Of a stretch of DNA of 64,000 nt, positions 8,597 through 24,328 are shown one piece after another. Made by a program: the position numbers and the translations under genes. Under the pieces are notes generated by a model. That model made no database searches, was not told the DNA's origin, and worked only from the letters and a program-made list of their open reading frames with translations. How positions within the stretch are numbered: position 1 is the stretch's first letter; each line of letters starts with the position of its first letter. The DNA is taken from assembly GCF_001999325.1 (NCBI RefSeq), contig NZ_MVAR01000018.1, positions 1 to 64,000 on the forward strand, read 5' to 3'. Source of the DNA: Thioalkalivibrio versutus. GTDB taxonomy: Bacteria > Pseudomonadota > Gammaproteobacteria > Ectothiorhodospirales > Ectothiorhodospiraceae.

Positions 8597-9565
8597 TCAG
8601 TAGCCGGCGGCGGGATCGACCGGCGTGATCGGGGCGTGGCCCTGTTCAAGCGCGCGGGCGTTGCGCACGAAGATCTCGAGGGCGCGCTCCATATAGTGCG
8701 GCGAGGTTCCCGAGACGTGTGGAGTGACGAGGACATTCTCCCGGTTCCACAGGGACGAGCCCGCGGGCAGGGGCTGCTCCTCGAAGACATCCAGTGCGGC
8801 GCCGCGCAAGTGGCCCGTGTCCAGGGCCTGGGTCAGGGCCCGCTGATCCACCACGCCGCCACGCGATATGTCCACCAGAACCGCGCCGGGCTTCAGGTGC
8901 TGCAACTGGGGCTCGGCGACCAGGTGGTGAGTGCCCGGCGTGAGGGGCAGGCAGACGACCAGGTAGTCCACTTCGGATAGACGTTTTTCCACAGCGTCCA
9001 GCGGGATGACCTCGCTGGCATGGTCATGGGCCCGCGGGTTGCGCTGGACGCCGATCACACGCATGTCGAACGCCTGGGCGCGGCGGGCTACCAGCGCGCC
9101 GATGTGCCCCATGCCGAGCACCATGACGGTGCGTCCGGTCAGTTCCCCAAGCCAGCTGCGCTCCCAGCGTTTCTGGCGGCTTTGCTCGTTGAAACGATCG
9201 AAGTGCTTGGCGAAGTAGAGCATGGCGCCGATCGCATACTCGCTCATCGGGGCACCATGGACGCCGCTGCTCTTGGTCATCATCAGGCCATCCTTGGGGA
9301 AGGGCATGTCCCAGATTCGCTCCACCCCGGCGGACAGGAAATGGATCCACTGATAGCGCGACAGGCGGTTCAGGGCCTCGGGCAGCCAGGGCAGCGTGGG
9401 GGCGATGACCGCGTCGACCTCAAGCCCCTCGGGAACGGCGTCGGGCCCCCCGGCGAAGGTCAGCGCGGTGTTGGGAAATGCCTCGCACAGGCGGCTTTCG
9501 ATGAGGCCCTGTTGTTGCCGCAGGACGTCAGGCTTCTGCAGGAACAGCGTCCGGCTCAGGCGCAT
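8597..9565 (-). CDS. D-2-hydroxyacid dehydrogenase family protein
   Basis: An NAD(P)-dependent oxidoreductase of the D-isomer 2-hydroxyacid dehydrogenase family, which reduces 2-keto acids or oxidises D-2-hydroxy acids. The 322-residue protein has the nucleotide-binding GMGHIG near residue 142. The catalytic triad residues lie in order: Arg in DISRGGVVD, Glu in DVFEEQP and His in VTPHVSG. I chose the ATG at 9565; it overlaps the end of the upstream aldolase gene by 10 nt, a sign of coupled translation. It is the last gene of the 12-gene polysaccharide operon. The substrate is unknown. Its pairing with the aldolase suggests it handles a keto or hydroxy acid used as a glycan substituent (inference). 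Confidence 0.85.
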   Translation of the reverse strand: MRLSRTLFLQKPDVLRQQQGLIESRLCEAFPNTALTFAGGPDAVPEGLEVDAVIAPTLPWLPEALNRLSRYQWIHFLSAGVERIWDMPFPKDGLMMTKSSGVHGAPMSEYAIGAMLYFAKHFDRFNEQSRQKRWERSWLGELTGRTVMVLGMGHIGALVARRAQAFDMRVIGVQRNPRAHDHASEVIPLDAVEKRLSEVDYLVVCLPLTPGTHHLVAEPQLQHLKPGAVLVDISRGGVVDQRALTQALDTGHLRGAALDVFEEQPLPAGSSLWNRENVLVTPHVSGTSPHYMERALEIFVRNARALEQGHAPITPVDPAAGY

Positions 9566-10407
9566 GCCCGACTCCGGTTGTGCAGCCGGGCCGCCAGCCG
9601 GAAGATGCGGCTGCGGACCTCGTCGCGGTTCTCCCCCAGCTGTTCCGGCGTCGCCGCGCGAAACCGTTGTTCCGCCGCTTGCAGGCGTCCCAGTTCGCCG
9701 CGCAGGCGCGCGGCCCCGGTGGCCGGGTCTTCCTGACTGACGACCTCGCGGAATGCGCGCGAGAGGATCACCCATTCGGAGCCGAGGCGGACATGCTCGC
9801 CCAGAATGGATTCCGCCGGGATCTCGCCTTTGCCCACGGCCCCGACGCCTCCAAACCCGAACGCGACGCCGGCCTCGCGGCACAGTGCCGCAGGGGCCTC
9901 GAGCATGCCGCCGGCCAGGGGTTCGAACAGGAAATCGAGCCCGGTGGCCAGGCTGAGGTCATTCAGGCCGATGTGAATCTGGTCGTCGGGCCCCAGCAGC
10001 GGCAGGTAGGAGGGGAGCCGGATCAGTGCCTGGGGTGTCTCGACCAGCAGAGCGACCGGCACTTGTCCGCCCACTGCGTCGAGGAAGAGCGCGACCTCGT
10101 CGATGTGGGTGAACATCGGCAGCATCAGCCGGTCGGCGCCGGCTTCGATCGCCTGGCGGACTTCGGAGGGCGTTTGCGATGCCGGGGGGTTGATGCGAAC
10201 CATCAATTCGGCGCTCGTCAACGCGCCGGCAATGCGGCGCACATCCTCGAGCGTGTGGCGCGCCTTGTGCGTGTCCATATGGCCCTGACGCTCGGCCTTC
10301 CCGCGGACTTCCATATCGACAAAGATGCGCGCGATCCCGGCTGCCTCAGCTTGTCGGGCGACGTTGGCGGAGGCGGTGATGAACATGTGTTTCAGGGTCG
10401 AGTTCAT
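9556..10407 (-). CDS. HpcH/HpaI aldolase/citrate lyase family protein
   Basis: A class II (metal-dependent) aldolase of the HpcH/HpaI family, which cleaves or forms C-C bonds using pyruvate- or keto-acid-type donors. The 283-residue protein has IFVDMEVRGK near residue 28, MVRINPP near 68, VETPQAL with the metal-ligand Glu near 122, and GLNDLSLATG with the metal-ligand Asp near 145. It overlaps the upstream sugar-transferase gene by 4 nt (ATGA) and the downstream dehydrogenase by 10 nt. Such an aldolase is not a standard polysaccharide gene. In this tight operon it may make or degrade a small acid that decorates the polymer. The specific reaction cannot be read from sequence. Confidence 0.82.
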   Translation of the reverse strand: MNSTLKHMFITASANVARQAEAAGIARIFVDMEVRGKAERQGHMDTHKARHTLEDVRRIAGALTSAELMVRINPPASQTPSEVRQAIEAGADRLMLPMFTHIDEVALFLDAVGGQVPVALLVETPQALIRLPSYLPLLGPDDQIHIGLNDLSLATGLDFLFEPLAGGMLEAPAALCREAGVAFGFGGVGAVGKGEIPAESILGEHVRLGSEWVILSRAFREVVSQEDPATGAARLRGELGRLQAAEQRFRAATPEQLGENRDEVRSRIFRLAARLHNRSRACA

Positions 10408-11054
10408 TTCGTGTCCCCTTGCTGTCGGTTACGCAACGAATCGCGATAGGTACGCCAGTTGATGCCGGCCTCGCCGTACACCCCCTGGCCGGTCAGGACT
10501 ACGTAAATGGTCCGCAGGATTAATCCCAGGTCATACAGCAGGTGATGCTGCGCGGCGTACTCGGTATCGGCCTCGAGCTGCTGGATCCAGCCCAGGGTGC
10601 GGCGACCGCGGACCTGGGCCAGGCCGGTCAGGCCGGGCCGCACGGAAAAACGGGAGGCGTAGGAAGGCGGGACGACCTCCACCTGCTCCGGCAGGATGGG
10701 GCGGGGGCCGACCACGCTCATGTCGCCACGCAGGATGTTCCAGAGCTGTGGCAGTTCATCGAGACTGCTGGCGCGCAGCAGCCGGCCTGCACGCGTGATG
10801 CGCGGATCGATCCCGGTACTGACGACCTGCTCGTGGTGCTGGTCGATGGTGTCCGGGTCGCGATCCACCATGGTGCGGAACTTGAGCACCCGGAAAGGCT
10901 GGCCATGGAGGCCAATACGTCGCTGGCGGAACAGGACCGGGCCCGGGCTGTCGAGGCGGATTGCCGCGGCGATCAGAAACAGGACCGGTGCCAGCAGGAT
11001 CAGGGCCCCCATGCTGGACAGGACGTCGAACAGTCGTTTGAGAGTCGCGTTCAT
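10404..11054 (-). CDS. Bacterial sugar transferase (PglC/WcaJ C-domain type phosphoglycosyltransferase)
   Basis: Transfers the first sugar phosphate from a nucleotide sugar to undecaprenyl phosphate at the inner membrane, starting the repeat unit. The 216-residue protein is the minimal monotopic form. It has one N-terminal membrane segment (about residues 12-32), then LDSPGPVLFRQRRIG near residue 34, LKFRTM near 57, the catalytic SSLDELPQLWNILRGDMSVVGPRP block near 95-118 with the essential Asp-Glu, and RPGLTGLAQV near 138. Its small size is like Campylobacter PglC rather than full WcaJ. The start overlaps the upstream glycosyltransferase by 4 nt. Confidence 0.93.
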   Translation of the reverse strand: MNATLKRLFDVLSSMGALILLAPVLFLIAAAIRLDSPGPVLFRQRRIGLHGQPFRVLKFRTMVDRDPDTIDQHHEQVVSTGIDPRITRAGRLLRASSLDELPQLWNILRGDMSVVGPRPILPEQVEVVPPSYASRFSVRPGLTGLAQVRGRRTLGWIQQLEADTEYAAQHHLLYDLGLILRTIYVVLTGQGVYGEAGINWRTYRDSLRNRQQGDTK

Positions 11055-12265
11055 GTGAGCTCCATGGACCGAAGAATCACGCGATTGACCTGTCCAACCT
11101 CGTATTTCGCTTCCACCCGCTCACGCGAGGCCCCGGCCATCTGGGGTAACAGTTCCGGCTGATCCAGAAACCGTTGCATGGCCTCGGCCAGGGGCGCAGT
11201 GGTTCGGGACGGGACGAGAAAGCCGTTCTCGCCATCCAGGACGGTTTCACGGCAGCCAGGGGCATCCGTGGTGATGATCGGGCGCCCCACGCTCATCGCC
11301 TCCAGCACCGAGCGGGGCGTGCCTTCTCGGTAGGAGGGCAGGACGAAGACCGAGGCCTTCTCGAGCCAGGGCCGAACATCGGTAACGCCGCCTGCGAACT
11401 CGACGATGCCCTCGCGCTTCCAGGCCTCGACCTGCTCTGCCGGGATCGAGTGGGGCAGGTCCGGGTTGTGGGGACCGACGACGACGAACCGGGCGCTGGG
11501 GGATTGCTGGTGGACCTGGCGCGCCGCCTCCACGAATTCGAGGATGCCCTTTTCGGTCAACAGGCGACCGACAAACAGGAACAGTGGGTCGCCCTCGGGC
11601 AGGGGCTGCCGCGCGAAGCGCTCCACATCCACGCCGGATCCGTTGATGCGGACCACCCGTTGGGTGTCGGGCAAAACCCCGCGGTCGAGGAAATCCTGCA
11701 GGTCATCCGGATTCTGGAAGAACACGCGATCGCAACGAGCGAGTGCCGTTCGGTACAGACGCGAACTGATGGTCCGCAACACCCGTGTCCGCCAGGACTC
11801 GGTCGTGAAGGCATGCCCCAGGCCGGTGATCATGGCGTATACCCGCGGAACGCCGGCCCAGTGTGCAGCCAGGGAGCCGTACACGACGGGCTTGACGGTG
11901 TAGCTGAACACCGCCTCCGGGCGCAGCCGCCGAATCAGCCGCGCCAGGGACATTGTGGTCCGTAGGTCTTCGACCGGGTTGACTCCGGTCCGGCCCAGGT
12001 CGAAGGGGTAGATCGGGATACCCAGGTCCTCGACCTCGGGTAGATAGTCCTTGCGCGGGACTGCCGCGGCCACGCCATGCCCTCGCGCCTGAATCTCGCG
12101 GATCAGATCACCGCGGTTGGCGATCAGCGAGCGGGCGTTGGCGGCCACGATCAGCAGATCGACGCTGCAGCGTTCGCGTACCGCGCCTTGACGGGTGGTC
12201 TCGGCAGCACTGGAGGTGTTGCCGCGCAGGGGCGATACGATTCGGCGATGCTCGGTTTCCTGCAT
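11051..12265 (-). CDS. Glycosyltransferase family 4
   Basis: A GT-B fold glycosyltransferase expected to add a sugar to the lipid-linked repeat unit in the cytoplasm. The 404-residue product has an N-terminal acceptor domain and a C-terminal donor domain with LFVGRLLTEKGILEFVEA near residue 210 and the family signature PSYREGTPRSVLEAM near 310. In the latter, E-x7-E is the conserved nucleotide-sugar-binding motif. I chose the ATG at 12265 because AGGAG lies about 9 nt upstream. A 184-nt gap separates it from the preceding dehydrogenase gene, the longest gap in the operon. Linkage and sugar cannot be deduced. Confidence 0.88.
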   Translation of the reverse strand: MQETEHRRIVSPLRGNTSSAAETTRQGAVRERCSVDLLIVAANARSLIANRGDLIREIQARGHGVAAAVPRKDYLPEVEDLGIPIYPFDLGRTGVNPVEDLRTTMSLARLIRRLRPEAVFSYTVKPVVYGSLAAHWAGVPRVYAMITGLGHAFTTESWRTRVLRTISSRLYRTALARCDRVFFQNPDDLQDFLDRGVLPDTQRVVRINGSGVDVERFARQPLPEGDPLFLFVGRLLTEKGILEFVEAARQVHQQSPSARFVVVGPHNPDLPHSIPAEQVEAWKREGIVEFAGGVTDVRPWLEKASVFVLPSYREGTPRSVLEAMSVGRPIITTDAPGCRETVLDGENGFLVPSRTTAPLAEAMQRFLDQPELLPQMAGASRERVEAKYEVGQVNRVILRSMELT

Positions 12266-12449: not shown

Positions 12450-13739
12450 TTATAGACGCAGGTCACTCGCCTCCGGCGGGAGCACGGATTTGACGTCGAA
12501 GATCACCGCGCGCTCGCGTGCGAACTTCTGTACGCCCTGCGGGCCCAGTTCCACGAACTCCCAGTGCGGGACGGCGAGGACGATTGCATCGTAACGAGAC
12601 GGCTCCGGGGTATCGGACAGGAGGTCCAGGCCGTACTCGTGATGGGCCTCGGCTGCGTCCACCCAGGGGTCCCAGATGTCGACGTTGGCGTTATAACCGT
12701 GCAGGTCATGGACGATGTCCACCACGCGCGTGTTGCGCAGATCCGGACAGTTCTCCTTGAAGGCGAGACCCATGATCAGGATGCGCGAACCCACGACCGG
12801 GAACCCCTTGCGGATCATTGCCTTGATGGTGCGGTCCGCGATATGCCCCCCCATGCCGTCGTTGGTGCGGCGTCCGGCGAGGATCATCTCCGGGTGGTAG
12901 TCGACGGCCTGCGCCTTGTGCGTCAGGTAGTACGGATCTACGCCAATGCAATGCCCGCCCACCAGGCCGGGCCGGAACGGCAGGAAATTCCACTTGGTCC
13001 CGGCCGCGGCCAGTACCGCCTCGGTATCCAGGTCCAGGCGCTCGAACAGCATGGCGAGTTCGTTGATCAGCCCGATATTCACGTCGCGCTGGGTGTTCTC
13101 GATGACCTTGGCCGCCTCGGCGACACGGATGCTGGCCGCCGGATGGGTGCCTGCGCGGATGATGCGGGTGTAGAGCGCGTTGACGAAGGCGGCGACCTCG
13201 GGGGTGGAGCCGGAGGTGACCTTGACGATGTCGGGGATACGGTGTTCCTTGTCGCCGGGGTTGACCCGTTCCGGGCTGTAGCCGAGGAAGAAATCCCGAT
13301 TGAGCTCCAGCCCCGACTCGGCAGCCAGCACGGGGGCGCAGTCCTCCTCCGTGGCTCCGGGGTAGACCGTGGACTCGTAGATCACCACGTCGCCCGGCTT
13401 CAGCACGCCCCCCACCGTGTGGCTGGCGGCCAGTAGCGGGCCCAGATCGGGGCAGCGATGCGCATCAATCGGGGTCGGCACCGTCACGATGAACACATTG
13501 CATTCCCGCAGCCGCTCCCTGTCTGCGGTCAGCTCCAGATGTTCGGCGCCGGCGAGTTCCTCGCGCGAGACTTCGCGCGTGCGGTCATGCCCCCCACGCA
13601 GTTCCTCGACCCGACCCGTATCGATGTCGAAGCCCAGCGTGGGCAGGACCCGTCCGAACTCGGCCGCCAGAGGCAGGCCGACATAACCCAGACCAATAAT
13701 GGCCAGACGCGGGGCGTCCGGTGCCGCAAATTCCGCCAT
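12450..13739 (-). CDS. UDP-N-acetylhexosamine dehydrogenase (WbpO/TviB type)
   Basis: An NAD-dependent dehydrogenase that oxidises C6 of a UDP-N-acetylhexosamine twice to the uronic acid, a precursor of acidic polysaccharides. The 429-residue protein has IIGLGYVGLPLA near residue 14, VTVPTP near 85, YESTVYPG near 120, the region around GTKWNFLPFRPGLVGGHCIGVDPYYLTHKA (residues about 248-277) with the catalytic Cys, and LGLAFKEN-like MGLAFKENCPDLRNTR near 325. Overall it is closer to the WbpO/TviB branch than to UDP-glucose dehydrogenase. The ATG at 13739 follows AGGAG. GalNAc versus GlcNAc preference is not readable. Confidence 0.88.
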   Translation of the reverse strand: MAEFAAPDAPRLAIIGLGYVGLPLAAEFGRVLPTLGFDIDTGRVEELRGGHDRTREVSREELAGAEHLELTADRERLRECNVFIVTVPTPIDAHRCPDLGPLLAASHTVGGVLKPGDVVIYESTVYPGATEEDCAPVLAAESGLELNRDFFLGYSPERVNPGDKEHRIPDIVKVTSGSTPEVAAFVNALYTRIIRAGTHPAASIRVAEAAKVIENTQRDVNIGLINELAMLFERLDLDTEAVLAAAGTKWNFLPFRPGLVGGHCIGVDPYYLTHKAQAVDYHPEMILAGRRTNDGMGGHIADRTIKAMIRKGFPVVGSRILIMGLAFKENCPDLRNTRVVDIVHDLHGYNANVDIWDPWVDAAEAHHEYGLDLLSDTPEPSRYDAIVLAVPHWEFVELGPQGVQKFARERAVIFDVKSVLPPEASDLRL

Positions 13740-13811: not shown

Positions 13812-15158
13812 TCAGGGCGAGGCACGCCGCGGGTGCGGCAGGCTTGTATCGGAAGATTCGGGTGGATCGGTGACATTGTCGGTCGTCGCTGCACGCCTCC
13901 CGGTGAGCCGTTGCAGGCGTTCCCAGCGCCATACGCGGCGGCCGGCCAGGCCCGCGGCCAGGGCAATCAGAATTCCGAGGAATTTCGCGCGGTGGCGGGC
14001 GGCGGTACCGAAGTTGCTGGTGCCCCAGGCGAAAATGATCGTGAGCACGACGAACATCACCACCAGCAGTCGGAAGTCCTTGCGTTGCCACCAGTGGTGG
14101 CGATAAACCGCCAGCAGCAGCACCAGGGACAAGTAGAACAAGCCCTCCAGCATGCCGATCAGGTGAACCGGGGAGCGCACCTCCCACAGCGGGGGGCCGA
14201 ACAGCAGATAGCCCATGCGGACCGGCGTCAGGACCAGCGCCTGAAGATCATTGGAGGGAATGAGAAAAGACGGATAGGCGGCGCCGCCACGCGCGCTGCG
14301 CTCGGCCCGCTGGTCCAGGGTCTCGGTCTGCTCCATGACATCGCCTAGCTGACCAATGGAGGAGAAACGCATGTCGTCCATCACCAGGAAGCCCAGGACA
14401 CCGGCCGCGCCGAGCAGGATGCCGCCGAACAGCAGGCCTGGGCGCATGCGGCCCAGGTCCGAGGCGCGCAGAAACTCCTTGATCGACCAGCCGACCAGCA
14501 CGACCGCAATGCCGGCGATCGCAAACACCGCGGCGCCATGCACGATCGCCGAGGCCAGCAAGACCCCCACCGCCGCCACCAGAAAAACGCTGCGCTGGCT
14601 TTGCACCCAGCGCACCAGCCAGAGCACCCCGAGCAGGAAGAAGGCGGTGAACCAGACCTCGCGCAACGGCACGGCGGCGTTCACGATCAGGATGGGGAAC
14701 AGCGCGGCGATCCAGGCGGCGCGCACCGCCGCCTGGCGGTCCCAGAGCTGTTCGGCGATGCGCGCGATCAGGTAGACCGTCAGCATGCCCAGGGCGATAT
14801 TCACGGCCTGGAAGGCGAGGGGCGCGCGGTCGACGCAGGCATAGATGTTCGCGATCAGCCAGCTGTGCAGGTAGGAACTGCCCATGCTGAAGTGATCCCC
14901 GAGATTGCCGCAGCCGCTTTGGGCCCAGAACCAGGCGCGGCGTTCGAAGCTGATCGCATCGGCGCCGCCCTGGGGCAACGGGAACAGGAAACGCTGCACC
15001 AGGGCGGCGCCGATGCGGGCAAGGAGGGCCGCCAGCAGTGGCCACAGATAGCCCTCCCGGGTGCGGCCCGTCCACAGCACGGCGACCAGCACGATGATCA
15101 GGAAGCTGCCCGACAGAAGCAGTTCCATGAAGGTGAACGGGATCGCGGTATAGCTCAT
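13812..15158 (-). CDS. Polytopic membrane protein, candidate polysaccharide polymerase (Wzy-like)
   Basis: A 448-residue protein with about ten predicted membrane segments and a periplasmic-sized loop (about residues 275-310) between the later segments. No motif assigns a family with certainty. By position, in an operon with an initiating sugar transferase, glycosyltransferases and an exporter but no other polymerase candidate, it could be the Wzy-type polymerase. A membrane glycosyltransferase is the alternative (an early FERRAWFWAQSGCGNLGDHF-type loop near residue 70 could be catalytic). Start and stop overlap its neighbour: the ATG at 15158 shares ATGA with the upstream glycosyltransferase stop. 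The C-terminal ~35 residues are charged and cytoplasmic. Confidence 0.65.
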   Translation of the reverse strand: MSYTAIPFTFMELLLSGSFLIIVLVAVLWTGRTREGYLWPLLAALLARIGAALVQRFLFPLPQGGADAISFERRAWFWAQSGCGNLGDHFSMGSSYLHSWLIANIYACVDRAPLAFQAVNIALGMLTVYLIARIAEQLWDRQAAVRAAWIAALFPILIVNAAVPLREVWFTAFFLLGVLWLVRWVQSQRSVFLVAAVGVLLASAIVHGAAVFAIAGIAVVLVGWSIKEFLRASDLGRMRPGLLFGGILLGAAGVLGFLVMDDMRFSSIGQLGDVMEQTETLDQRAERSARGGAAYPSFLIPSNDLQALVLTPVRMGYLLFGPPLWEVRSPVHLIGMLEGLFYLSLVLLLAVYRHHWWQRKDFRLLVVMFVVLTIIFAWGTSNFGTAARHRAKFLGILIALAAGLAGRRVWRWERLQRLTGRRAATTDNVTDPPESSDTSLPHPRRASP

Positions 15159-16291
15159 GGCGAGACGGACGCGGTGCCTGCCAGGGCATCCTGGAACAGG
15201 GCCTGATAGCGCGCGCTCACGGCATCGAGGGCGTAATGCGATTGCATGCGTGCACGAGCCTTGCCCCCGAGACCGCGCAGGCGTTCACGGCCCTGGCCAA
15301 CGGCGTAGCGAATGGCGTCGGCCAGGTCCGGCGGCTTTGGGCTTGCGGAGACAAAACCGGTCTCTCCGACCACGGTGGCTGCATCGCCGATGTCCGTGAC
15401 CACGGCGGGGACGCCGCAGGCCATTGCCTCGCCTACGACGTTGGGGAAGCCCTCGCCCCAGCGCGATGGCAGCACCAGCAAATCCAGGCCTGGATAGAGG
15501 GCCTCGGGTTCGGGGGTCGGAGGCAGCAGTGTTACGTGCCGGGCCATCCCGTGCTCGCGCATGGCCAGGGCCAGGGGATTGTCGTCTGCGGAGACCCCGG
15601 TGCCGACCATCACGCAGTGCACGTCCACCCCGGACTGGACCAGTTGCGCCAGGGCGGCCACCAGTCCGGCATGGTTCTTCATCGGATGGGCGCGGCCCAC
15701 CATGCCCAGCAACCAGGTTTCCGCACCAATGCCCAGCTGCGCGCGCAGGCCACGGGGCGCCTCGGGTTCGGGGCAGAAACGCCCCAGATCAAAGCCGTTG
15801 GGCAGCACCACGCGACCGCTGGACGCAAAACCCAGGGCCTCGTGCTGCGCGGCCGCGGCCGCACTGTTGTAGACGATGCGCGCCGGATGCCGCGACAGCC
15901 ACGCCCCGGTCCGGATCACCCAGCGGGTTCCGCGTTTCTCGTGTGCCAGGTCGTGCACCGAGTGGCGTACATTCCAGAACACCGGACCGCGGTGTCCAAG
16001 GCGCCGGGTGAGCGAGGCGGCAAGGTTGCCGTGGTACATCCAGCCCATGACGCCATCCGGCTGATAGGCGTCCAGTGTCCGGCGCAATGCCGCGATCCAT
16101 CCCACCGAGAGCGGGCTGCGCAGTCCTCCGGAATACACCGGGATGCCGTGCGCGCGGATGGTCCCGGCCATTACGCCGGGCTCCTTGAGTGCGAAGACCG
16201 CCCCGGTATCCGGCGCGGCCCGTAGCAGGTTCCCTAGCTGGCGTTCCGCTCCGCCCTGGCCGAGCCCATTGATCACATGCAGGATCTTCAC
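15155..16291 (-). CDS. Glycosyltransferase family 4 (GT-B)
   Basis: A 378-residue GT-B glycosyltransferase for repeat-unit assembly. It starts MKILHVINGLGQGGAERQL, the typical N-terminal glycine loop of GT4 enzymes. The C-terminal domain contains MVGRAHPMKNHAGLV near residue 190 and LPSRWGEGFPNVVGEAMACG near residue 275, with the E-x7-E signature. The start is GTG at 16291, supported by GGGAGA upstream and by a GTGA overlap with the stop of the preceding adenylate-forming gene. The donor and linkage are unknown. Confidence 0.88.
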   Translation of the reverse strand: MKILHVINGLGQGGAERQLGNLLRAAPDTGAVFALKEPGVMAGTIRAHGIPVYSGGLRSPLSVGWIAALRRTLDAYQPDGVMGWMYHGNLAASLTRRLGHRGPVFWNVRHSVHDLAHEKRGTRWVIRTGAWLSRHPARIVYNSAAAAAQHEALGFASSGRVVLPNGFDLGRFCPEPEAPRGLRAQLGIGAETWLLGMVGRAHPMKNHAGLVAALAQLVQSGVDVHCVMVGTGVSADDNPLALAMREHGMARHVTLLPPTPEPEALYPGLDLLVLPSRWGEGFPNVVGEAMACGVPAVVTDIGDAATVVGETGFVSASPKPPDLADAIRYAVGQGRERLRGLGGKARARMQSHYALDAVSARYQALFQDALAGTASVSP

Positions 16292-17625
16292 CGCCGATTC
16301 TCCCGCAATTCGCTGATGACATGCAGGTGCTTCCCGCTGGCCGAGGGCGGAATCGTGCCCACGCGTTCGATATCGAGTCGGGTGCTCGCGCCCAGTTGCT
16401 GGTGGATGGCGGGTTCCAGTCGCTCGCGCAGGGACTGCTCGCGCTCGCTGTCGGACCTGTTGTCTGCAGGGATCAGCCGCAGGCGGAGGTGATCCTCCGC
16501 GTGCTGTACCCACTGGTACTGCCCGATCCAGTCTTCCGGGTACAGAAGCTGGCGCAGCCAGCCGCCGAATACGACTGCACCGTTGGCGCCGCGTAGGTGA
16601 TCGGTCACGCGCCCCCATACACCCTCCAGCAGGGGCCACTCACGGCCACAGTCGCAGGTCTCCCTCGACCAGCTGGCCAGGTCGCCGATCGCGTAGCGCA
16701 GTAGGGGCATGCTGTGATTCGTGAGCGAGGTGACCACGACGCGACCCGGGGTGCCGGGGGGTGCCGGCCGGCCCTCGTCGTCGAGGATCTCGAGGAACTG
16801 TGTCAGGGGGTTCACGTGCAGGCCTCGGTGGCGTTCGCATTCGCAGGCCATGTCGCCCACCTCCCGCGAGCCGTAGCGGTTGAACACAGGGGCGGAGAAG
16901 GCCTCCTCGATGGTGTCGCGCATATCGGGAAAGAGGGTTCCGGCCGAACTCAGCACGCTGCCGATACCCTGAATGCGGATCCCCCGGCGCAGGGCGTGCC
17001 GGGCGAGTTCGTGGCCGCTCTCCGCGTAGACCTGGAGCTGCGCGGGCGGTGCCGCGCGCAGCTGCTCCAGGTGTGCATCCATCGTGGCCGGATCCATGCA
17101 GTAGGCGTTCAGAAGGGTGCGATTCTTCATCCGCTCGGCCAGTCGGCGCACGCCGCGCCCGGCGGTCAGGTCGCGTGAAGCGGCCCAGAGCACGGCCTTG
17201 CGGTGTCCCGGCCGGTAGCCGGTCCAGGCATCGAACAGGGCCTTGGTGGCGCGGCCCCAGCGGCGGTAGGCGGTGTCCTGGTAGAACGTTGCGGGCTCGC
17301 CGGTCGAACCGCCGGAGGTGTTGCGCCGCAGTCCGGGGCGTGGCCGCTCGGAACGCAGGCGCTCGCCTTCGCGGCGGATGGTGTGCTTGTCGAGAATGGG
17401 CAGTGACAGCAGGGCCGCAACCGGATCAGTCGCGATCACGTTCACCGGTGGCAACAGGTCGCGGTAGTACGGGACCTCGTCTCGCGCCTGCATCAAGAGA
17501 CGGGCCAGTCGTTCGGCCTGCAGGCGTTGCAGGGCAGGGAGTGAGAGCCGCTCGGCGCGGCGCAACGCGGCATATTCGCGCGGGCCGGACAGCCAGGGAA
17601 GGAGGGCACCAAAGGCGAGGGACAT
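16288..17625 (-). CDS. PaaK/CapK-like adenylate-forming enzyme
   Basis: A member of the phenylacetate-CoA ligase / coenzyme F390 synthetase-like branch of adenylate-forming enzymes, which activate a carboxylic acid as acyl-AMP. The 445-residue protein has the P-loop-like NTSGGSTGEPATFYQD near residue 100, SSAGTLFPDMR near 228, the NRYGSREVG block near 250 and RYAIGDLASW near 315. The cysteine pair CDCGR near residue 332 is also found in CapK-like proteins. Such proteins recur in capsule and exopolysaccharide loci but have no firmly established substrate. Here it lies between a QueC-like gene and a glycosyltransferase, so it probably activates an acid that is attached to the glycan. Confidence 0.82.
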   Translation of the reverse strand: MSLAFGALLPWLSGPREYAALRRAERLSLPALQRLQAERLARLLMQARDEVPYYRDLLPPVNVIATDPVAALLSLPILDKHTIRREGERLRSERPRPGLRRNTSGGSTGEPATFYQDTAYRRWGRATKALFDAWTGYRPGHRKAVLWAASRDLTAGRGVRRLAERMKNRTLLNAYCMDPATMDAHLEQLRAAPPAQLQVYAESGHELARHALRRGIRIQGIGSVLSSAGTLFPDMRDTIEEAFSAPVFNRYGSREVGDMACECERHRGLHVNPLTQFLEILDDEGRPAPPGTPGRVVVTSLTNHSMPLLRYAIGDLASWSRETCDCGREWPLLEGVWGRVTDHLRGANGAVVFGGWLRQLLYPEDWIGQYQWVQHAEDHLRLRLIPADNRSDSEREQSLRERLEPAIHQQLGASTRLDIERVGTIPPSASGKHLHVISELRENRR

Positions 17626-17637
17626 GGCGTTTGCGTC

Positions 17638-18357
17638 TCAGGCGCCGGCGGTGCGCATCAAGCGCAGGCTGGAGCGTGCCCGGCGTGCGAGCTCCAGGAG
17701 CGGCCCCAGGCGCGAATACTGGATTGCCCGGTTCGACTCGCGCGAGAAGCGGCAAGGCTGGCAGTGACCACAGGGCCGGCCCAGGATCGGCGAGTGGCAG
17801 AACCAGGATTGTTCGAGCAGGGGCAGGAAGCCCTTGGCCTCGGCATCGAACTTCATCGCCTCCTTGGTTACTGACAGCAGCGGGAAGCGGTAGTACTGGA
17901 ACAGCTCCCAGGCGAAGTCGTCCTCGCGAAAGCGGTAATCGCCGCACTGCGGATTGCGGAACAAGCGTTCCTGCAACTCGGTTCCGGCCTCGTGACCGGT
18001 CAGCGACAGTTCGAGGTCACGCAGGCCCTCCTGTGCGCACAGTCGTGCCAGCCAGTCGTACTGGGTACCCACATGCACCTCGCTGGCCAGGCGCTGATAA
18101 AGCGTGGTGATGTCCGGGCTCGCGAGGATGTCGTCGCGCAGGTAGACCCGGACCGGCGCGACCCGCCCGCGGGCTTCCGGGCGGGACTCCAGCCCTGCCC
18201 GGATGGTGGCCATGGCGCGCAGCTCGTGGACATAGGACTTGCGTCGCGGGTCCAGGACATAAATCGGTTGGACCCGGTGCTGGCGGTGCAGCGCCAGGTC
18301 CAGAAGGCGGTAGCTGGAGTCCCAGCCACCGGTCCACAGCAGTTTGATCGTGTGCAT
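17638..18357 (-). CDS. PP-loop ATPase, QueC (7-cyano-7-deazaguanine synthase)-like
   Basis: A 239-residue protein of the adenine-nucleotide alpha-hydrolase fold. The PP-loop is LLWTGGWDSSYR at residues 5-16 (Thr where many members have Ser). Near the C-terminus SWFCHSPILGRPCGHCQPC gives the four-Cys zinc motif C-x8-C-x2-C-x2-C, as in QueC. QueC adenylates a carboxylate and converts it to amide and nitrile. The gene sits inside a polysaccharide operon rather than with queuosine genes, which points to an ATP-dependent carboxylate activation of a glycan precursor. The ATG at 18357 has GAGG about 9 nt upstream. The physiological substrate is unknown. Confidence 0.75.
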   Translation of the reverse strand: MHTIKLLWTGGWDSSYRLLDLALHRQHRVQPIYVLDPRRKSYVHELRAMATIRAGLESRPEARGRVAPVRVYLRDDILASPDITTLYQRLASEVHVGTQYDWLARLCAQEGLRDLELSLTGHEAGTELQERLFRNPQCGDYRFREDDFAWELFQYYRFPLLSVTKEAMKFDAEAKGFLPLLEQSWFCHSPILGRPCGHCQPCRFSRESNRAIQYSRLGPLLELARRARSSLRLMRTAGA

Positions 18358-18385
18358 GACGTCCTCGTGATTGCGGCTGGCTGGG

Positions 18386-19492
18386 TTAGCGCGGATAGCC
18401 CTGTGGGACCGAGGGCAGCAACGGGCCAAAACAGGACTCGTTGCGCGACCAGGCCACTTGCTCCGCATTCCATTCCAGGATCACGGGCTTGCCGTCGGCC
18501 TGGATGCAGACGTCCCAGCCGATGAAGCGCAGATAGGGGATGCGGCGGTGGGCGTTCAGGCAGAGCTCGCGCACGGCGCCGAAGTTGGGGATCCGCAGGC
18601 CTTTGACGTCAGTGCCACTGTCCGGGTGGACCGAACCGATGCTGACGCAGACCGGGTCGCGCAGGTGGCCATCCAGCCAGCCTCCGCCGTCCACGCCGAC
18701 GAAATAGCCGCCGGTGGAGACGTTGTCGGTGCGCTGTCCTTCGCGCCCGAGGCGCAGAAAGTGGTTCAGGATGCGCAGCTCGCCGGATTCGGGATCGAGG
18801 AAGGTCAGGACCCGCAGGGTGTTCACCGAACTGGCATTGATTTTCGCGATATCGGCGTGCTGCTCGATCAGGGGCTGCACGATGCAGTTGCCGGGAATCC
18901 GGGAGAGTTCCTCGGCGACGCGGTCGGCGGGCGCAAAGGTCACGCCGAGGCCCTGACGCCCCTCGTCGGGCTTGAGGACGTAGCTCTTGTCGTCTTCGAG
19001 ACGGGCGAGGGCGGCAGCCAGCGGTTCCGGTGTGCCCCGGGCGTCCAGATACTGGCCACCCACGCGCACGAAGATGGGCGGTACGACGCTGTCCGGGAAC
19101 AGGCGGGAGTCCATCGTCTTGAGTCCGCTCAGGCGGCGGATGTCCTGGCGGTTCCACAACGGATTGAGGTGTTCGGTGTAGTAGTCGTCGCCGATCCAGC
19201 CCTCGATGAACTCGCGGCGGACCTCGGTGTAGGCCGCCAGCCATGGCCACCAGGAATCGCTGCCGTAGGTTTGAGCGGCGTAACGCTTGATCTGTTGTAG
19301 GACCGGGCGCGTCACCACCGATTCGCCGTGCGCGCGGATCAGCTTTTCGCGCCACTGGATCGCGATCTTGCGCGACTTCTGCAGGTGGCGCAGGTGCACC
19401 GCACGCGCAAGGGTGCGCGCGAGGCGTCCGCTGTTCTTGATCTGCAGGGGCTGGGATTGAACGTGTGTCACGGGCATTTCCTCGGTTTGCAT
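18386..19492 (-). CDS. Sugar-transfer-associated ATP-grasp protein
   Basis: A 368-residue ATP-grasp enzyme of the type found in surface-polysaccharide loci. ATP-grasp enzymes join a carboxylate to an amine or thiol through an acyl-phosphate. The ATP-binding lysine and glycine-rich loop appear as YVLKPDEGRQGLG near residue 170, and the metal-binding end as VILEWNAEQV near residue 345. The N-terminal ~100 residues are basic and helical. ATG 19492, GTG 19498 or ATG 19477 could start it, and none has a well-spaced ribosome-binding site. It lies 13 nt after the ABC exporter gene and just before the PP-loop gene. The product is presumably an amide- or amino-acid-modified sugar (inference). Confidence 0.78.
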   Translation of the reverse strand: MQTEEMPVTHVQSQPLQIKNSGRLARTLARAVHLRHLQKSRKIAIQWREKLIRAHGESVVTRPVLQQIKRYAAQTYGSDSWWPWLAAYTEVRREFIEGWIGDDYYTEHLNPLWNRQDIRRLSGLKTMDSRLFPDSVVPPIFVRVGGQYLDARGTPEPLAAALARLEDDKSYVLKPDEGRQGLGVTFAPADRVAEELSRIPGNCIVQPLIEQHADIAKINASSVNTLRVLTFLDPESGELRILNHFLRLGREGQRTDNVSTGGYFVGVDGGGWLDGHLRDPVCVSIGSVHPDSGTDVKGLRIPNFGAVRELCLNAHRRIPYLRFIGWDVCIQADGKPVILEWNAEQVAWSRNESCFGPLLPSVPQGYPR

Positions 19493-19505: not shown

Positions 19506-21341
19506 TCAGCAGTGGGTGCCGGAGGGCGCAGCGTCGGTAATCGACTGGACCGGAGACTCGGTCGTCCCGGGTTCGGTGACCAGGTCGTCGAAGCGGCCCA
19601 CTGACGTGAACGAGCCGCGCTCCAGATGGGCGACCTGATCGCAGGCCCGCACGGTGCTCAGACGGTGGGCAATCAGGATGATGGTCTTGCTCTGCGCCAG
19701 GGACTCGATCGCCTCCATCACAGCGCGCTCGGTGGTGGTGTCGAGGGCGCTGGTGGCCTCGTCGAATACCAGGACATCGGGGTCGTGGTAGAGGGCGCGG
19801 GCGATGCCGATGCGCTGGCGTTGACCGCCGCTCAGGCGCACGCCGCGCTCGCCGACCATGGTGACGTACTGCTCCGCCATGTCCTGGACGATGAAGTCGT
19901 GGACCTGCGCCATGCGGGCGCAGCGTTCCACCCGGTCGTGGTCGATTTGTGCGGCCGGGATACCCAGCGCGATGTTTTCGGCCACGGTCGAATCCGTCAG
20001 GAAGATGTCCTGGGGCACATAGCCCAGGGACTGTTGCCACGCGCGCAGGTTGGCATCCGTGACGGGCTGGCCATCCACCAGGATGGCGCCCTGGGTCGGC
20101 CGTAGCAGGCCCAGAAGCACGTCCACCAGGGTCGTCTTGCCGGACCCGGTGGTGCCGATGATGCCCACCGAGCTGCCAACCGGGATTTCCAGATCAATGG
20201 ACTGCAGGGCGGGCTGGTGGGCGCCCGGGTAGGTGTAGTCGATGCCCTTGAGCTGGATGGTCTGGCGTGGGACCAACGGCTGCGGTGCACGTCGATGCAG
20301 CTCCGCGAGGGCCTCGCGTTCACGCAGGTCGGCGGTCACGCTTTCCACCGCCGCAGCGCCGAAGCGCAGTTTGGCGAGGCCGGCGTAGATGTGCTGCGCG
20401 GCGGGCAACAGGCGATAGCCGGCAAAGGCATACAAGCCGATGATCGGGAGGATCTCGCCGAGGGAATCGGTACCCGTTCCGCCCTGGGTGTGCAACAGGA
20501 TCAGGGTCAGCGCGATGATGCCGCCGAAGCCGATCGCCTCGATGAGGAATTTGGGGACCTGGGCGATGGTCTGGTTGGTGGCCTGGTGCCGGGCCTGGCG
20601 CTTGGACGGCGCGTCGAAGCGCGACAGGTAGGCGTGCTCGCGGCCCAGTAGCTTGATGTCCTTGATGCCGCCTAGGGCCTCGCCGGCGGCGGTGAAGCGC
20701 TCCTTGTTGGCGCGCGAACGATCGCGCCCGATGCGTCCGAGCAGGCCGCGCACGAACACAAAGATCGTGCCGTACACGCCGCCAATGACGACCGCGACTC
20801 CCAGCGCCAGCCACGGGTCGACGATGACGAGCAGCGCCGCGATGGCGAGGGTGACCACCAGGTAGGCCACCATGGTGATCCCGGGGCGGAAGACATTGAG
20901 TACCAGCTGGTCGACCTCCGAGAGGATGCTTTTGGCCATGTCGCCGCTGTGGCGATTCAGGAAAAATGCATACGGCTGGCGCAGGTAGGTCTCCAGGAGT
21001 CGCTTGCCGAGGCTGTGGCGGCGCATCTCGATGAAGCGGTTCATCGCAAAGTGCGTGAGTGTGCGAAACACCGCCGAGAACAGGATCAGTGCGAAGGCTG
21101 CGGCGCCCAGGGCAAAGATGAACTGGTCCACCGAGGTGAAGCCCAGCCCGGTGTAGAGCTGGTTGAGCACGGGGTTGGTGTGGACCAGTTCGGGGTTTCC
21201 AAGCACGGACAAGAACGGCATGACCGACGCCACGCCGGCGGTTTCCAGTATCGCCATCACCATCACCATGCCGAGCACCAGGGCGCCCCGCCGTCTCTCG
21301 GCCGGGGTGAGCAGTTGCAGGGTCTTGCGGTAGATGCCCAT
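19506..21341 (-). CDS. ABC exporter, fused membrane and ATPase domains (MsbA/PglK-like)
   Basis: A 611-residue half-transporter that would act as a dimer in the inner membrane. Six membrane segments fill about residues 20-320. The ATPase domain follows with Walker A IIGTTGSGKTT near residue 395, the signature RLSGGQRQRIGIARAL near 500, Walker B VLVFDEATSALD near 524 and the switch His in IAHRLST. In this operon, without any recognisable Wzx, it is a good candidate for the flippase of the lipid-linked repeat unit, as PglK is in Campylobacter. The ATG at 21341 shares one base with the stop of the epimerase gene. Export of another lipid-linked intermediate cannot be excluded. Confidence 0.88.
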   Translation of the reverse strand: MGIYRKTLQLLTPAERRRGALVLGMVMVMAILETAGVASVMPFLSVLGNPELVHTNPVLNQLYTGLGFTSVDQFIFALGAAAFALILFSAVFRTLTHFAMNRFIEMRRHSLGKRLLETYLRQPYAFFLNRHSGDMAKSILSEVDQLVLNVFRPGITMVAYLVVTLAIAALLVIVDPWLALGVAVVIGGVYGTIFVFVRGLLGRIGRDRSRANKERFTAAGEALGGIKDIKLLGREHAYLSRFDAPSKRQARHQATNQTIAQVPKFLIEAIGFGGIIALTLILLHTQGGTGTDSLGEILPIIGLYAFAGYRLLPAAQHIYAGLAKLRFGAAAVESVTADLREREALAELHRRAPQPLVPRQTIQLKGIDYTYPGAHQPALQSIDLEIPVGSSVGIIGTTGSGKTTLVDVLLGLLRPTQGAILVDGQPVTDANLRAWQQSLGYVPQDIFLTDSTVAENIALGIPAAQIDHDRVERCARMAQVHDFIVQDMAEQYVTMVGERGVRLSGGQRQRIGIARALYHDPDVLVFDEATSALDTTTERAVMEAIESLAQSKTIILIAHRLSTVRACDQVAHLERGSFTSVGRFDDLVTEPGTTESPVQSITDAAPSGTHC

Positions 21342-22366
21342 CAGGCGGCCGCCCGGTAATACCCCAGGTACCAGTCCACGAAACGGGCGATGCCATCCTC
21401 GACGGTGGTGGTTGGTTCGTAGCCGGTATCGGCGCGCAGGGCCTCGACGTCGGCGTAGGTATCCGGCACGTCCCCCGGCTGCAGCGGCAGCAGGTGCTTC
21501 TGGGCCTTGCGACCCAGGCAGTCCTCCAGCACCTCGATGTAGTGCATCAGCTCCACCGGACGGTGCGCGCCGATGTTGTACAGGCGATAGGGCGCGGAAC
21601 TGCTCGCGGAGTCCGGGGCCGCGCCACTCCACTCGGGGTTCGGGGCCGCGGGCCGATCCAGGGTGTGGATCACGCCCTCGACGATGTCGTCGATATAGGT
21701 GAAGTCGCGCCGGTGGTGGCCGTAGTTGAAGACGTCGATCGGCTCGCCCGCCAGGATCTTCTGCGTGAACAAGAACAGCGCCATATCCGGGCGGCCCCAG
21801 GGGCCGTAGACAGTGAAGAAGCGCAGCCCGGTCACCGGCAGATCGTAGAGATGGCTGTAGGTATGCGCCATCAGCTCGTTGGCCTTCTTGCTGGCGGCGT
21901 ACAGGCTCAGCGGGTGATCGACGTTGTCGTGCACCGAGAACGGCATGGTGGTGTTGGCGCCGTAGACCGAGCTGGAACTGGCGTAGACCAGGTGCTCGAC
22001 GCCGTTATGCCGGCAGCCCTCCAGGATGTTGCCGAAACCGACCAGGTTGGTGTCGACATAGGCCGCCGGGTTCTCCAGCGAATAGCGCACGCCGGCCTGG
22101 GCCGCCAGGTTCACCACCCGCTGCGGCCGGTGCTCGCGGAACACCCGTTCCACCGCCGCTCGATCGGAGATGTCCTGCTGTTCGAACACGAAGTGCTGAC
22201 GGGCGGCGGGGAAGGCGCGTATGTGATCCAGCCGGGCCCGCTTCAGGCTCGGGTCGTAGTAGTCGTTCAGATTGTCGACACCGATCACGGTGTCGCCACG
22301 TTCCAGCAGGCGCAGAGCCAAATGGGAGCCGATAAAACCTGCCGCGCCGGTGATCAGGACTTTCAT
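21341..22366 (-). CDS. NAD-dependent epimerase, UDP-glucuronate 4-epimerase-like
   Basis: An extended SDR epimerase. Close sequence features suggest interconversion of UDP-glucuronate and UDP-galacturonate for an acidic polysaccharide. The 341-residue protein has [11 protein letters not shown] at residue 7, [10 protein letters not shown] near 80, YASSSSVYG near 120, the catalytic YAASKKANE near 150 and [15 protein letters not shown] near 180, the last being typical of UDP-glucuronate epimerases. The ATG at 22366 follows AAAGGCGAC. It is the first gene of the 12-gene leftward operon and is divergent from wza. Confidence 0.9.
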
Positions 22367-22751: not shown

Positions 22752-23882
22752 ATGAACGAGACAACCCCCATTCGCTGGGCCCTGTCGCTGGTCACGCTAC
22801 TGGCGCTGAGCGGTTGTGCCTGGGCACCTGGCGGGCATATCTCCGAGCGCAGCTCGAGTGCCCCGGTCGAAGATCTGGTCGACATTGAACCGATTACGTT
22901 CGGTCTGATCCGGGCGCAGGAGCAGCGCTCGGTACCGCCGGACCTGCGTCGGGCGAGCGATGATTTGGTGCGGGACGTCGACGAGTACGACTACCGCGTG
23001 GGTCGTGGCGATGTGCTGGCGGTCATTGTGTATGAGCACCCGGAGCTGACGATCCCGGCCGGGAGCGAGCGGTCGGCGGTGGAATCGGGCAACACCGTGC
23101 ATTCGGACGGCACGATCTTCTATCCGTATATCGGACGGGTGCATGTGGAGGGGCGCACGGTCGCGGAGGTGCGCGATCTGATTGCGCGCGACCTGGCGGC
23201 CTTTGTGAACGAACCCCAGGTCGAGGTGCGGCTCGCCGCGTTCAACTCGCAGAGGGTCCGGGTGACGGGCGAGGTGCGCGAGCCGGGTGTGCAGCCCATT
23301 ACGAACGTCCCGCAGACGGTGCTCGATGCCATCCACCAGGCTGGTGGTCTGGCGGACACGGCCAACTGGCATGAGGTGATCCTCACTCGGGACGGGGAGG
23401 AAATCGTCGTCTCGCTCTACGAGATGCTGCGCCATGGGGACATGTCGCAGAACCGGCTGTTGCGCGATGGGGATGTCCTGCACATCCCGGACACCGCCGG
23501 CCAGCAGGTCTATGTGATGGGCGAGGTGGGTGATCCTCAGCGCCTGCCCCTGGGCCGTGGTCAGGTCACCCTGATGGATGCGCTGAGCCAGGCTGGAGGC
23601 TTCAACGAAACCCGGGCGGATGCCAGCGGGATCTTCGTGATCCGCCGTGCACCACCCGAGAGCGACAAGCTCGCGACCGTCTATCAGCTGGACGCGCGCA
23701 ATGCCTCGGCACTGATGCTCGGGGCCGAGTTCGAGCTCGAACCGCTGGACATCGTCTATGTCACCACCACGCCCCTCGGGCGCTGGAATCGCGTGATCAG
23801 TCAGATCCTGCCCACCGTGAGCGCGGTCTATCAGGCATCGCGGACCACGCGAGATGTTCGAAACCTCAGCGACGACTTCTAG
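22752..23882 (+). CDS. wza: Outer-membrane polysaccharide export lipoprotein
   Basis: Wza/GfcE-type protein forming the octameric outer-membrane channel for capsule or exopolysaccharide. The 376-residue product has a lipoprotein signal with lipobox LSGC (Cys 22). The polysaccharide-export domain starts at YDYRVGRGDVLAVIVYEHPEL near residue 79, and two SLBB-like segments follow (RVRVTGEVREPGVQPI near 170, QQVYVMGEVGDPQRLPLG near 250). The C-terminal part could supply the membrane helix. Length matches Wza. The ATG at 22752 has AGAGGATGATCC upstream. It is followed after 2 nt by the phosphatase gene, giving the wza-wzb-wzc order. Confidence 0.95.
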   Translation: MNETTPIRWALSLVTLLALSGCAWAPGGHISERSSSAPVEDLVDIEPITFGLIRAQEQRSVPPDLRRASDDLVRDVDEYDYRVGRGDVLAVIVYEHPELTIPAGSERSAVESGNTVHSDGTIFYPYIGRVHVEGRTVAEVRDLIARDLAAFVNEPQVEVRLAAFNSQRVRVTGEVREPGVQPITNVPQTVLDAIHQAGGLADTANWHEVILTRDGEEIVVSLYEMLRHGDMSQNRLLRDGDVLHIPDTAGQQVYVMGEVGDPQRLPLGRGQVTLMDALSQAGGFNETRADASGIFVIRRAPPESDKLATVYQLDARNASALMLGAEFELEPLDIVYVTTTPLGRWNRVISQILPTVSAVYQASRTTRDVRNLSDDF

Positions 23883-23884
23883 CC

Positions 23885-24328
23885 ATGTTCAATCGGATTC
23901 TTGTGGTTTGTACTGGCAACATCTGCCGCAGCCCCATTGGGGAAGCCCTGTTGCGTAATCGTTTGCCCGATCGCGCGGTGGAATCCGCCGGCCTTGGGGC
24001 CCTGGTCGGGGAGGGCGTTCACCCTGAAGCCCGGCGTCTCGCCGAGGCCGACGGCCTGGATGTCTCGGCACACGTAGCGCGTCAGGTGGAGCCGGAGCTC
24101 CTGCATCACGCCGACTTGGTGCTGGTCATGAGCGAGCGGCAGCGGCAGGCAGTGGGGGCGCGCCACCCCGAGGTGCTGGGCAAGACGATGCGCTTCGGTC
24201 ACTGGCTGGAAGATGGCCGGGGCCGTGATGTTCCTGATCCCTATGGCAAGAGCCCCGAGGTATTCGGGCAGGCACATGCCCTGCTCGTGGAGGCTGCCGA
24301 CGCCTGGGCGCGGCGGCTCAATCGATGA
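23885..24328 (+). CDS. wzb: Low-molecular-weight protein-tyrosine phosphatase
   Basis: Dephosphorylates the tyrosine-rich tail of the Wzc kinase, allowing the phosphorylation cycle needed for polymer export. The 147-residue protein has the active-site loop VCTGNICRSPIGE near residue 8 (C-x5-R-S) and the general-acid loop DVPDPYGKS near residue 120. These are the full signatures of the family, and the length is normal. It sits 2 nt after wza and 22 nt before wzc, in a single transcript. Confidence 0.95.
   Translation: MFNRILVVCTGNICRSPIGEALLRNRLPDRAVESAGLGALVGEGVHPEARRLAEADGLDVSAHVARQVEPELLHHADLVLVMSERQRQAVGARHPEVLGKTMRFGHWLEDGRGRDVPDPYGKSPEVFGQAHALLVEAADAWARRLNR

Follow-up and report, generated by a model that had tools for sequence, protein, structure and literature searches.

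What does a QueC-like enzyme do in the middle of a polysaccharide operon? The question is raised by a stretch of 64,000 nucleotides from the soda-lake bacterium Thioalkalivibrio versutus (contig NZ_MVAR01000018.1, positions 1 to 64,000; the window hereafter), in which three genes for ATP-dependent enzymes lie side by side in an operon that runs from 22366 to 8597 on the minus strand, in a genome of 2.83 Mb:

18386 to 19471, minus strand: ATPgrasp_ST (PF14397) ligase with a RimK-like core (PF14397 score, motifs, RimK profile and fold matches)
17638 to 18357, minus strand: QueC-like zinc PP-loop protein of the WTGGWDS family, 239 residues (motifs, tree, profile and fold comparisons)
16288 to 17625, minus strand: PaaK/CapK-like adenylate-forming enzyme, 445 residues (A3, A5, A8 and A10 motifs; PaaK structures at E 5e-19)

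What is firmly new is a widespread and so far undescribed family, sister to QueC and called the WTGGWDS family in this text, which has a recurrent ATP-grasp partner; the PP-loop and ATP-grasp pair, not the trio, is the recurrent unit. This pairing suggests a new enzymatic route to amide-type bonds on cell-surface polymers.

The three-gene arrangement at 16288-19471 is present in the window. Gene order, families and motifs agree with an earlier note on this DNA, which had seen three ATP-dependent carboxylate-activating folds adjacent in a polysaccharide operon. The genes are contiguous and co-directional, with 28 bases between the ATP-grasp and PP-loop genes and 12 between the PP-loop and PaaK-like genes, and the PaaK-like gene overlaps the next glycosyltransferase gene by 4 bases. 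The PP-loop gene starts with ATG at 18357; the ATP-grasp gene likely starts with GTG at 19471, with GAGG ahead of it, and its longer frame extends to 19498. The motifs are intact in all three products, namely i) KPDEGRQGLG, GWD and EWN in the ATP-grasp protein, ii) TGGWDS (the PP-loop, within WTGGWDS) and the complete four-cysteine zinc motif C(x)8CxxCxxC, as first noticed, in the PP-loop protein and iii) TSGGSTGEP (A3), YGSRE (A5), GRVTD (A8) and SGK (A10) in the PaaK-like enzyme. Chance adjacency is excluded, because five further Thioalkalivibrio genomes have orthologues, 85-91% identical, in this very order.

Is the PP-loop protein simply QueC? No Pfam or NCBIfam model attains its cut-off with the window protein, and the QueC model PF06508 gives 15.8 bits against a cut-off of 22. 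Scanning genomes for homologues yielded 219 relatives; the analysis kept the 79 best loci (L038-L116), which span 12 phyla. Across 90 aligned members, L-WTGGWDS, P31, Y33, R39, S41, E45, GxQYxWL, FP, K165, M168, WFCxxP and PCGxCxPC are invariant or nearly so; all 90 carry the PP-loop [ST]GGxDS (just two in the SGG form) and 87 the zinc layout C(x)7-11CxxCxxC. The substrate motifs YxQxHxxE, VPxRN and YPDC, whose residues were probed by mutagenesis in E. coli QueC (PMC13329287), each occur in none of the 90, versus 25, 26 and 26 of 26 true QueC proteins. In the tree, 107 family members form one clade and the 26 QueC another, separated with a support of 100, and a canonical QueC is encoded elsewhere in the same genome (G000:C18:91404, 251 bits). 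The phylogeny called for in the earlier note thus sets the protein apart from QueC, and the separate queC, the tree and the absent substrate motifs together rule out a queuosine enzyme placed here by chance. A second QueC-like frame in this genome (L002:1024-2046; G000:C27:9539-10042) reaches 90 bits to PF06508 and is undetermined (N) at two residues of its PP-loop motif.

QueC is the nearest family by sequence for 87 of the 90 members. A profile search of the PDB finds it at E 4.6e-4, a profile-profile comparison gives it a probability of 93%, and the single window sequence has no match in the PDB. The AlphaFold2 model (mean predicted local distance difference test, pLDDT, 93.5) is nearest to the folds of Cap9 (Z 12.5), YcfA (10.6), QueC (10.2; 3bl5) and QatC (9.6). 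No cluster of a 2026 analysis of PF06508 fits the family, the small archaeal clusters 7, 8 and 10 having gone unanalysed there (PMC13329287), and we found no paper that names it. Through their similarity, members risk annotation as 7-cyano-7-deazaguanine synthase.

The carrier genomes also provide clues to the substrate. Canonical QueC is present in 28 of the 41 carrier genomes searched, with no match in 13; six of these (two Blastococcus, two Modestobacter, Tetragenococcus and Loktanella), with absence taken at face value, also have no PTPS/QueD match, and four of the six hold the PP-loop/ATP-grasp pair. Therefore, the substrate need not be 7-carboxy-7-deazaguanine; this weighs against preQ0 synthesis and Cap9-type deazaguanylation and argues for a substrate other than a deazaguanine.

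The partnership with ATP-grasp enzymes extends far beyond this operon. Of 104 PP-loop genes, 23, from six phyla, have an ATP-grasp gene no more than 1.2 kb away, with distances taken from six-frame profile matches, and the PP-loop tree requires a minimum of 10 changes of this trait. Direct adjacency was observed in about 13 of 46 genomes, as compared with about 0.06 expected by chance from the roughly 110 PF14397 or PF14305 matches in these genomes; the paired lineages are not all independent, eight loci being from Geodermatophilaceae. Two ATP-grasp families, PF14397 and the TupA-like PF14305, are involved; their genes can lie to the left or right of the PP-loop gene and in both orientations, and in Modestobacter and Synergistales loci ATP-grasps flank it on both sides. 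The window protein matches PF14397 (127.5 bits, cut-off 31.4) and not PF14305. Its core resembles RimK-type glutamate ligases (profile E 4.5e-5; best fold RimK 5zct, Z 15.1), in a model with a mean pLDDT of 69.6 and a poor N-terminal region (first ~90 residues). The closest ATP-grasp protein is from Fodinibius (37%), where its gene lies downstream of three tandem PP-loop genes. Tandem runs of three to four diverged PP-loop paralogues also occur at L066:3004-6530, L052:1880-4324, L073:9947-12230 and L102:8957-11722; the middle copy in L052 reads WTSGWDS and the third in L073 is without the Y-D-R-S motif, which suggests specialised or inactive copies.

The PaaK-like enzyme is lineage-specific. 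Its orthologues (85-86%) are confined, within the order searched, to six Thioalkalivibrio genomes, and the trio is all-or-none in 6 of the 47 genomes of this order. Since the entire operon co-varies, this co-inheritance tells nothing specific about the trio. Elsewhere, a PaaK gene directly adjoins the PP-loop gene in one sampled lineage, Nitrospira (L081), and lies within 5.5 kb of it in Marinobacter (L114, L084), Halobacillus (L057) and Pontibacillus (L079). A strictly conserved trio, the module envisaged at first, is ruled out beyond the six Thioalkalivibrio genomes; the trio is therefore a local combination built on the wider pair. The PaaK-like protein gives 133 bits to the NCBIfam DVU_1553-family AMP-ligase model (cut-off 300) and 69-98 bits to PaaK models (equivalog cut-offs 646-700), below the cut-off in each case.

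What could the pair act upon in this operon? An epimerase and an exporter gene precede the trio, and the genes that follow the PaaK-like gene lead down to a 2-hydroxyacid dehydrogenase. Wza, Wzb and Wzc form the divergent part of the locus, and YjbH is also encoded in the neighbourhood:

21341 to 22366, minus strand: NAD-dependent epimerase/dehydratase, TviC/GalE-like (profile matches)
19506 to 21341, minus strand: PglK/MsbA-like ATP-binding cassette (ABC) exporter, probable lipid-linked glycan flippase (NF050066, 323 bits, under its cut-off)
15155 to 16291, minus strand: glycosyltransferase of family GT4 (profile matches)
13812 to 15158, minus strand: multi-spanning membrane protein, possible polymerase or glycosyltransferase (weak PMT_2 match)
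12450 to 13739, minus strand: TviB-like UDP-N-acetylhexosamine 6-dehydrogenase (582.3 bits, cut-off 592; TIGR03026, 363 bits, above cut-off)
11051 to 12265, minus strand: GT4 glycosyltransferase (profile matches)
10404 to 11054, minus strand: undecaprenyl-phosphate sugar-phosphate transferase, Bac_transf (209.5 bits)
9556 to 10407, minus strand: HpcH/HpaI-aldolase-like protein (23.4 bits, just under the Pfam cut-off of 25)
8597 to 9565, minus strand: D-2-hydroxyacid dehydrogenase (profile matches)
22752 to 23882, plus strand: Wza polysaccharide export protein (profile match)
23885 to 24328, plus strand: Wzb-type low-molecular-weight phosphatase (profile match)
24351 to 26531, plus strand: Wzc tyrosine autokinase (profile match)

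The pair at the operon end (8597-10407), D-2-hydroxyacid dehydrogenase and aldolase-like protein, could supply a hydroxy acid to the PaaK-like or the PP-loop enzyme.

We tentatively propose, as a possibility somewhat short of even, that WTGGWDS PP-loop enzymes and ATP-grasp ligases put amide-linked substituents on the carboxylates of cell-surface polymers. The substituent could be a primary amide, an amino acid or another amine. The TviB-like dehydrogenase is the likely source of the glycan carboxylate and would supply a hexosaminuronic acid, the operon context pointing to a uronate-bearing polymer as the target. By analogy with family chemistry, the PP-loop enzyme would adenylate the carboxylate (ATP to AMP and pyrophosphate) for attack by ammonia or an amine, which corresponds to the opening half-reaction of QueC. 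The RimK-like ATP-grasp would form a further amide bond via an acyl phosphate, and the PaaK-like enzyme would activate, by adenylation, one more acyl group that is particular to the lineage, after which the product would be flipped and exported. The substrates, the order of steps and the bond type are predictions of this scheme. WbtH, an asparagine-synthase-like PP-loop enzyme of a Francisella O-antigen locus, probably turns N-acetylgalactosaminuronic acid into its amide; in its simplest form, the proposal would have a QueC-scaffold counterpart of WbtH do the same.

Several observations back amide formation on surface polymers: the ATP and zinc motifs are (nearly) invariant in 90 homologues, the ATP-grasp pairing recurs in six phyla and with two ATP-grasp families, the PF14397 core resembles glutamate ligases, and a UDP-N-acetylhexosamine dehydrogenase sits in the same operon. 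Besides, in the capsule of C. jejuni, the TupA-like ATP-grasp domain Cj1438C amidates glucuronate at its C6 carboxylate (PMC11800379). Other neighbours of the PP-loop gene also make or use amide or peptide bonds; in the Thioalkalivibrio paralogue loci L027, L028 and L030 it lies beside an asparagine-synthase-like protein and PGA_cap, and these contexts, together with Mur-fusion and phage-type ones, are consistent with the formation or use of amide or peptide bonds at surface polymers. The association with polymer modification drawn in the earlier note is supported. Among the products it listed, an amidated or amino-acyl sugar is the best-fitting candidate; a nitrile has no specific support, the QueC substrate-pocket motifs being all absent.

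Other findings weigh against the proposal. A polysaccharide marker lies within 10 kb in only 26 of the 79 loci, a lower bound given the limited marker set, and the pair is partly found outside polysaccharide loci, 8 of 19 ATP-grasp-paired loci being without a marker of this limited set. Many family members stand alone (Kushneria, Halomonas, Lysobacter), ATP-grasp relatives occur without a PP-loop gene within the same order (G014, G045), PP-loop folds also perform thiolation, and location in one operon need not mean that the trio acts in one pathway.

The low number of loci with a marker and these eight marker-free paired ones keep alive a real if improbable rival, in which the PP-loop/ATP-grasp pair produces a small soluble compound, such as a short amidated peptide or an osmolyte-like substance, and the polysaccharide setting is secondary. 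Paired loci without a marker are found in Blastococcus and Rhodobacteraceae, and numerous carriers belong to halophilic or desiccation-tolerant genera. The recurrent company of glycosyltransferases, PGA_cap and flippases argues against a soluble product, as does the PF14397 family, which is named for its association with sugar transfer.

Thiolation, yielding a thiocarboxylate or thioamide as in LarE, NcsA/TtuA or the 6-thioguanine enzyme YcfA, is a clearly less probable activity. After Cap9, the folds that come closest include YcfA, NcsA, LarE and TtuA, and four cysteines are conserved; however, these follow the QueC zinc layout, QueC is the nearest sequence family for nearly all members, and no sulfur-donor gene was seen nearby. 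We consider it highly unlikely that the protein joins a carboxylate (e.g. 7-carboxy-7-deazaguanine) to a protein N-terminus as Cap9 and QatC do: Cap9 is the top fold match and one member (L031) lies beside a CAP12-TIR effector gene, but the Cap9/QueC motif YxDC occurs in 0 of 90 members and the Cap9 motif [YF]xQ(x)5E in 2 of 90, the six carriers without QueC and PTPS/QueD lack the known route to de novo synthesis of the base, and there is no conserved partner protein. The probability is very low, too, that the enzyme is a nitrile synthetase that takes a sugar or amino-acid carboxylate through the complete, two-part reaction of QueC. The QueC-like fold and zinc motif would suit it, the nitrile synthetase ArtA appears at rank 43 of the Foldseek list and other ATP-dependent nitrile synthetases are known (PMC13060819); the ArtA match is weak, however, the QueC substrate motifs are all absent, and nothing singles out the second (dehydration) step. 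Acetamidino formation as in the N-sugar amidotransferases WbpG/PseA is the least probable reading: PP-loop enzymes are known from O-antigen loci and WbpG is assigned to PF06508 cluster 5, but its CxxC(x)6CxC motif (PMC13329287) is found in 0 of 90 members and no HisH/HisF-type partner genes were seen in the operon.

Further neighbourhoods of the family deserve mention in their own right. In Marinobacter (L114:6127-8004, L084:10818-12794), a fusion of a Mur ligase (PF08245, PF02875) with a peptidyl-tRNA hydrolase (PF01195), an unusual domain combination, lies directly downstream of the PP-loop gene; these loci also hold PGA_cap and PaaK-like genes. A gene of the phosphoenolpyruvate (PEP)-mutase/isocitrate-lyase family (PF13714 in L069) is directly downstream in the Steroidobacter-type loci L069, L080, L083 and L085, and a similar one is near the PP-loop gene in a Rhodobacteraceae metagenome-assembled genome (L115:7549-8364). 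At L031:10635-12798, the member adjoins a CAP12-PCTIR TIR-domain effector gene in a defence-like neighbourhood. Halophilic or haloalkaliphilic carriers are numerous (Kushneria, Halomonas, Halobacillus, Natribacillus, Larsenimonas, Fodinibius, Pontibacillus; L041-L065, L073, L079, L087), which may reflect a preference of the family for such hosts.

Homologues also occur on a viral contig (L118:5995-6735) and in a phage-like region of Oceanobacillus (L042:9935-10732); in both, the gene just ahead encodes a tail protein that contains a peptidase M14 domain, and the gene that follows is of the endolysin type. This slot is typical of lysogenic-conversion cargo, and the two genes look like such cargo. 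Large viral contigs (L119:3519-6666; also L120 and L121) carry a distant member beside a UDP-sugar dehydrogenase gene; annotated phage and plasmid records, searched with two queries, returned no homologue. That a QueC-derived zinc PP-loop enzyme and an ATP-grasp build an unseen amide, nitrile or thio-acyl substituent of surface polymers, a new role of the QueC scaffold beyond 7-deazaguanine that phages spread as surface-conversion cargo, is a broader version that we hold to be rather doubtful.

Amide formation by the pair, if true, would be a novel means of derivatising bacterial surface polymers and would bear on phage adsorption and on adaptation to alkaline or saline habitats. As the family is strongly linked in genomes to a partner whose type of chemistry is known, the substrate question is experimentally tractable. 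Anti-phage defence was recently found to have recruited proteins of the QueC scaffold (Cap9, QatC), and the WTGGWDS family is a further large branch, with 12 phyla in the sample.

How does the system compare with known ones? With QueC (PF06508 cluster 1) the family shares the PP-loop fold and the C-terminal four-cysteine motif, but it has WTGGWDS in place of SGGxDS, forms a separate clade without the substrate motifs in 90 of 90 members, and has ATP-grasp and glycosyltransferase genes as neighbours, in the window in a genome that already holds queC. Cap9 of type IV CBASS (cyclic oligonucleotide-based anti-phage signalling system) and QatC are the nearest solved folds and likewise repurpose the QueC scaffold. 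Unlike them, the family shows no CD-NTase or QatB partner, the QatC motif CGxCxxRR occurs in 0 of 90 members, and QatC models match at most 1-3 of the 90, weakly; the six carriers, with neither a QueC nor a PTPS/QueD match, show no evident supply of 7-carboxy-7-deazaguanine, the window genome itself having queC. WbpG/PseA are likewise PP-loop enzymes inside surface-glycan loci, with a different cysteine motif and with HisH/HisF-type partners, which were not seen here. The PaaK-like enzyme has the full adenylation motif set of PaaK/CapK and PaaK structures align over nearly its full length, whereas its identity to PaaK is low and it stays under every curated cut-off. The ATP-grasp protein shares the core and sequence profile of the RimK/ArgX/LysX glutamate ligases, but has an extra N-terminal region, low overall identity and a polysaccharide context. 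The Cj1438 amidoligase is of the TupA-like type (PF14305) that pairs with the PP-loop family in other phyla; in contrast, the window ATP-grasp belongs to PF14397, and the passages of PMC11800379 consulted describe no PP-loop partner for Cj1438.

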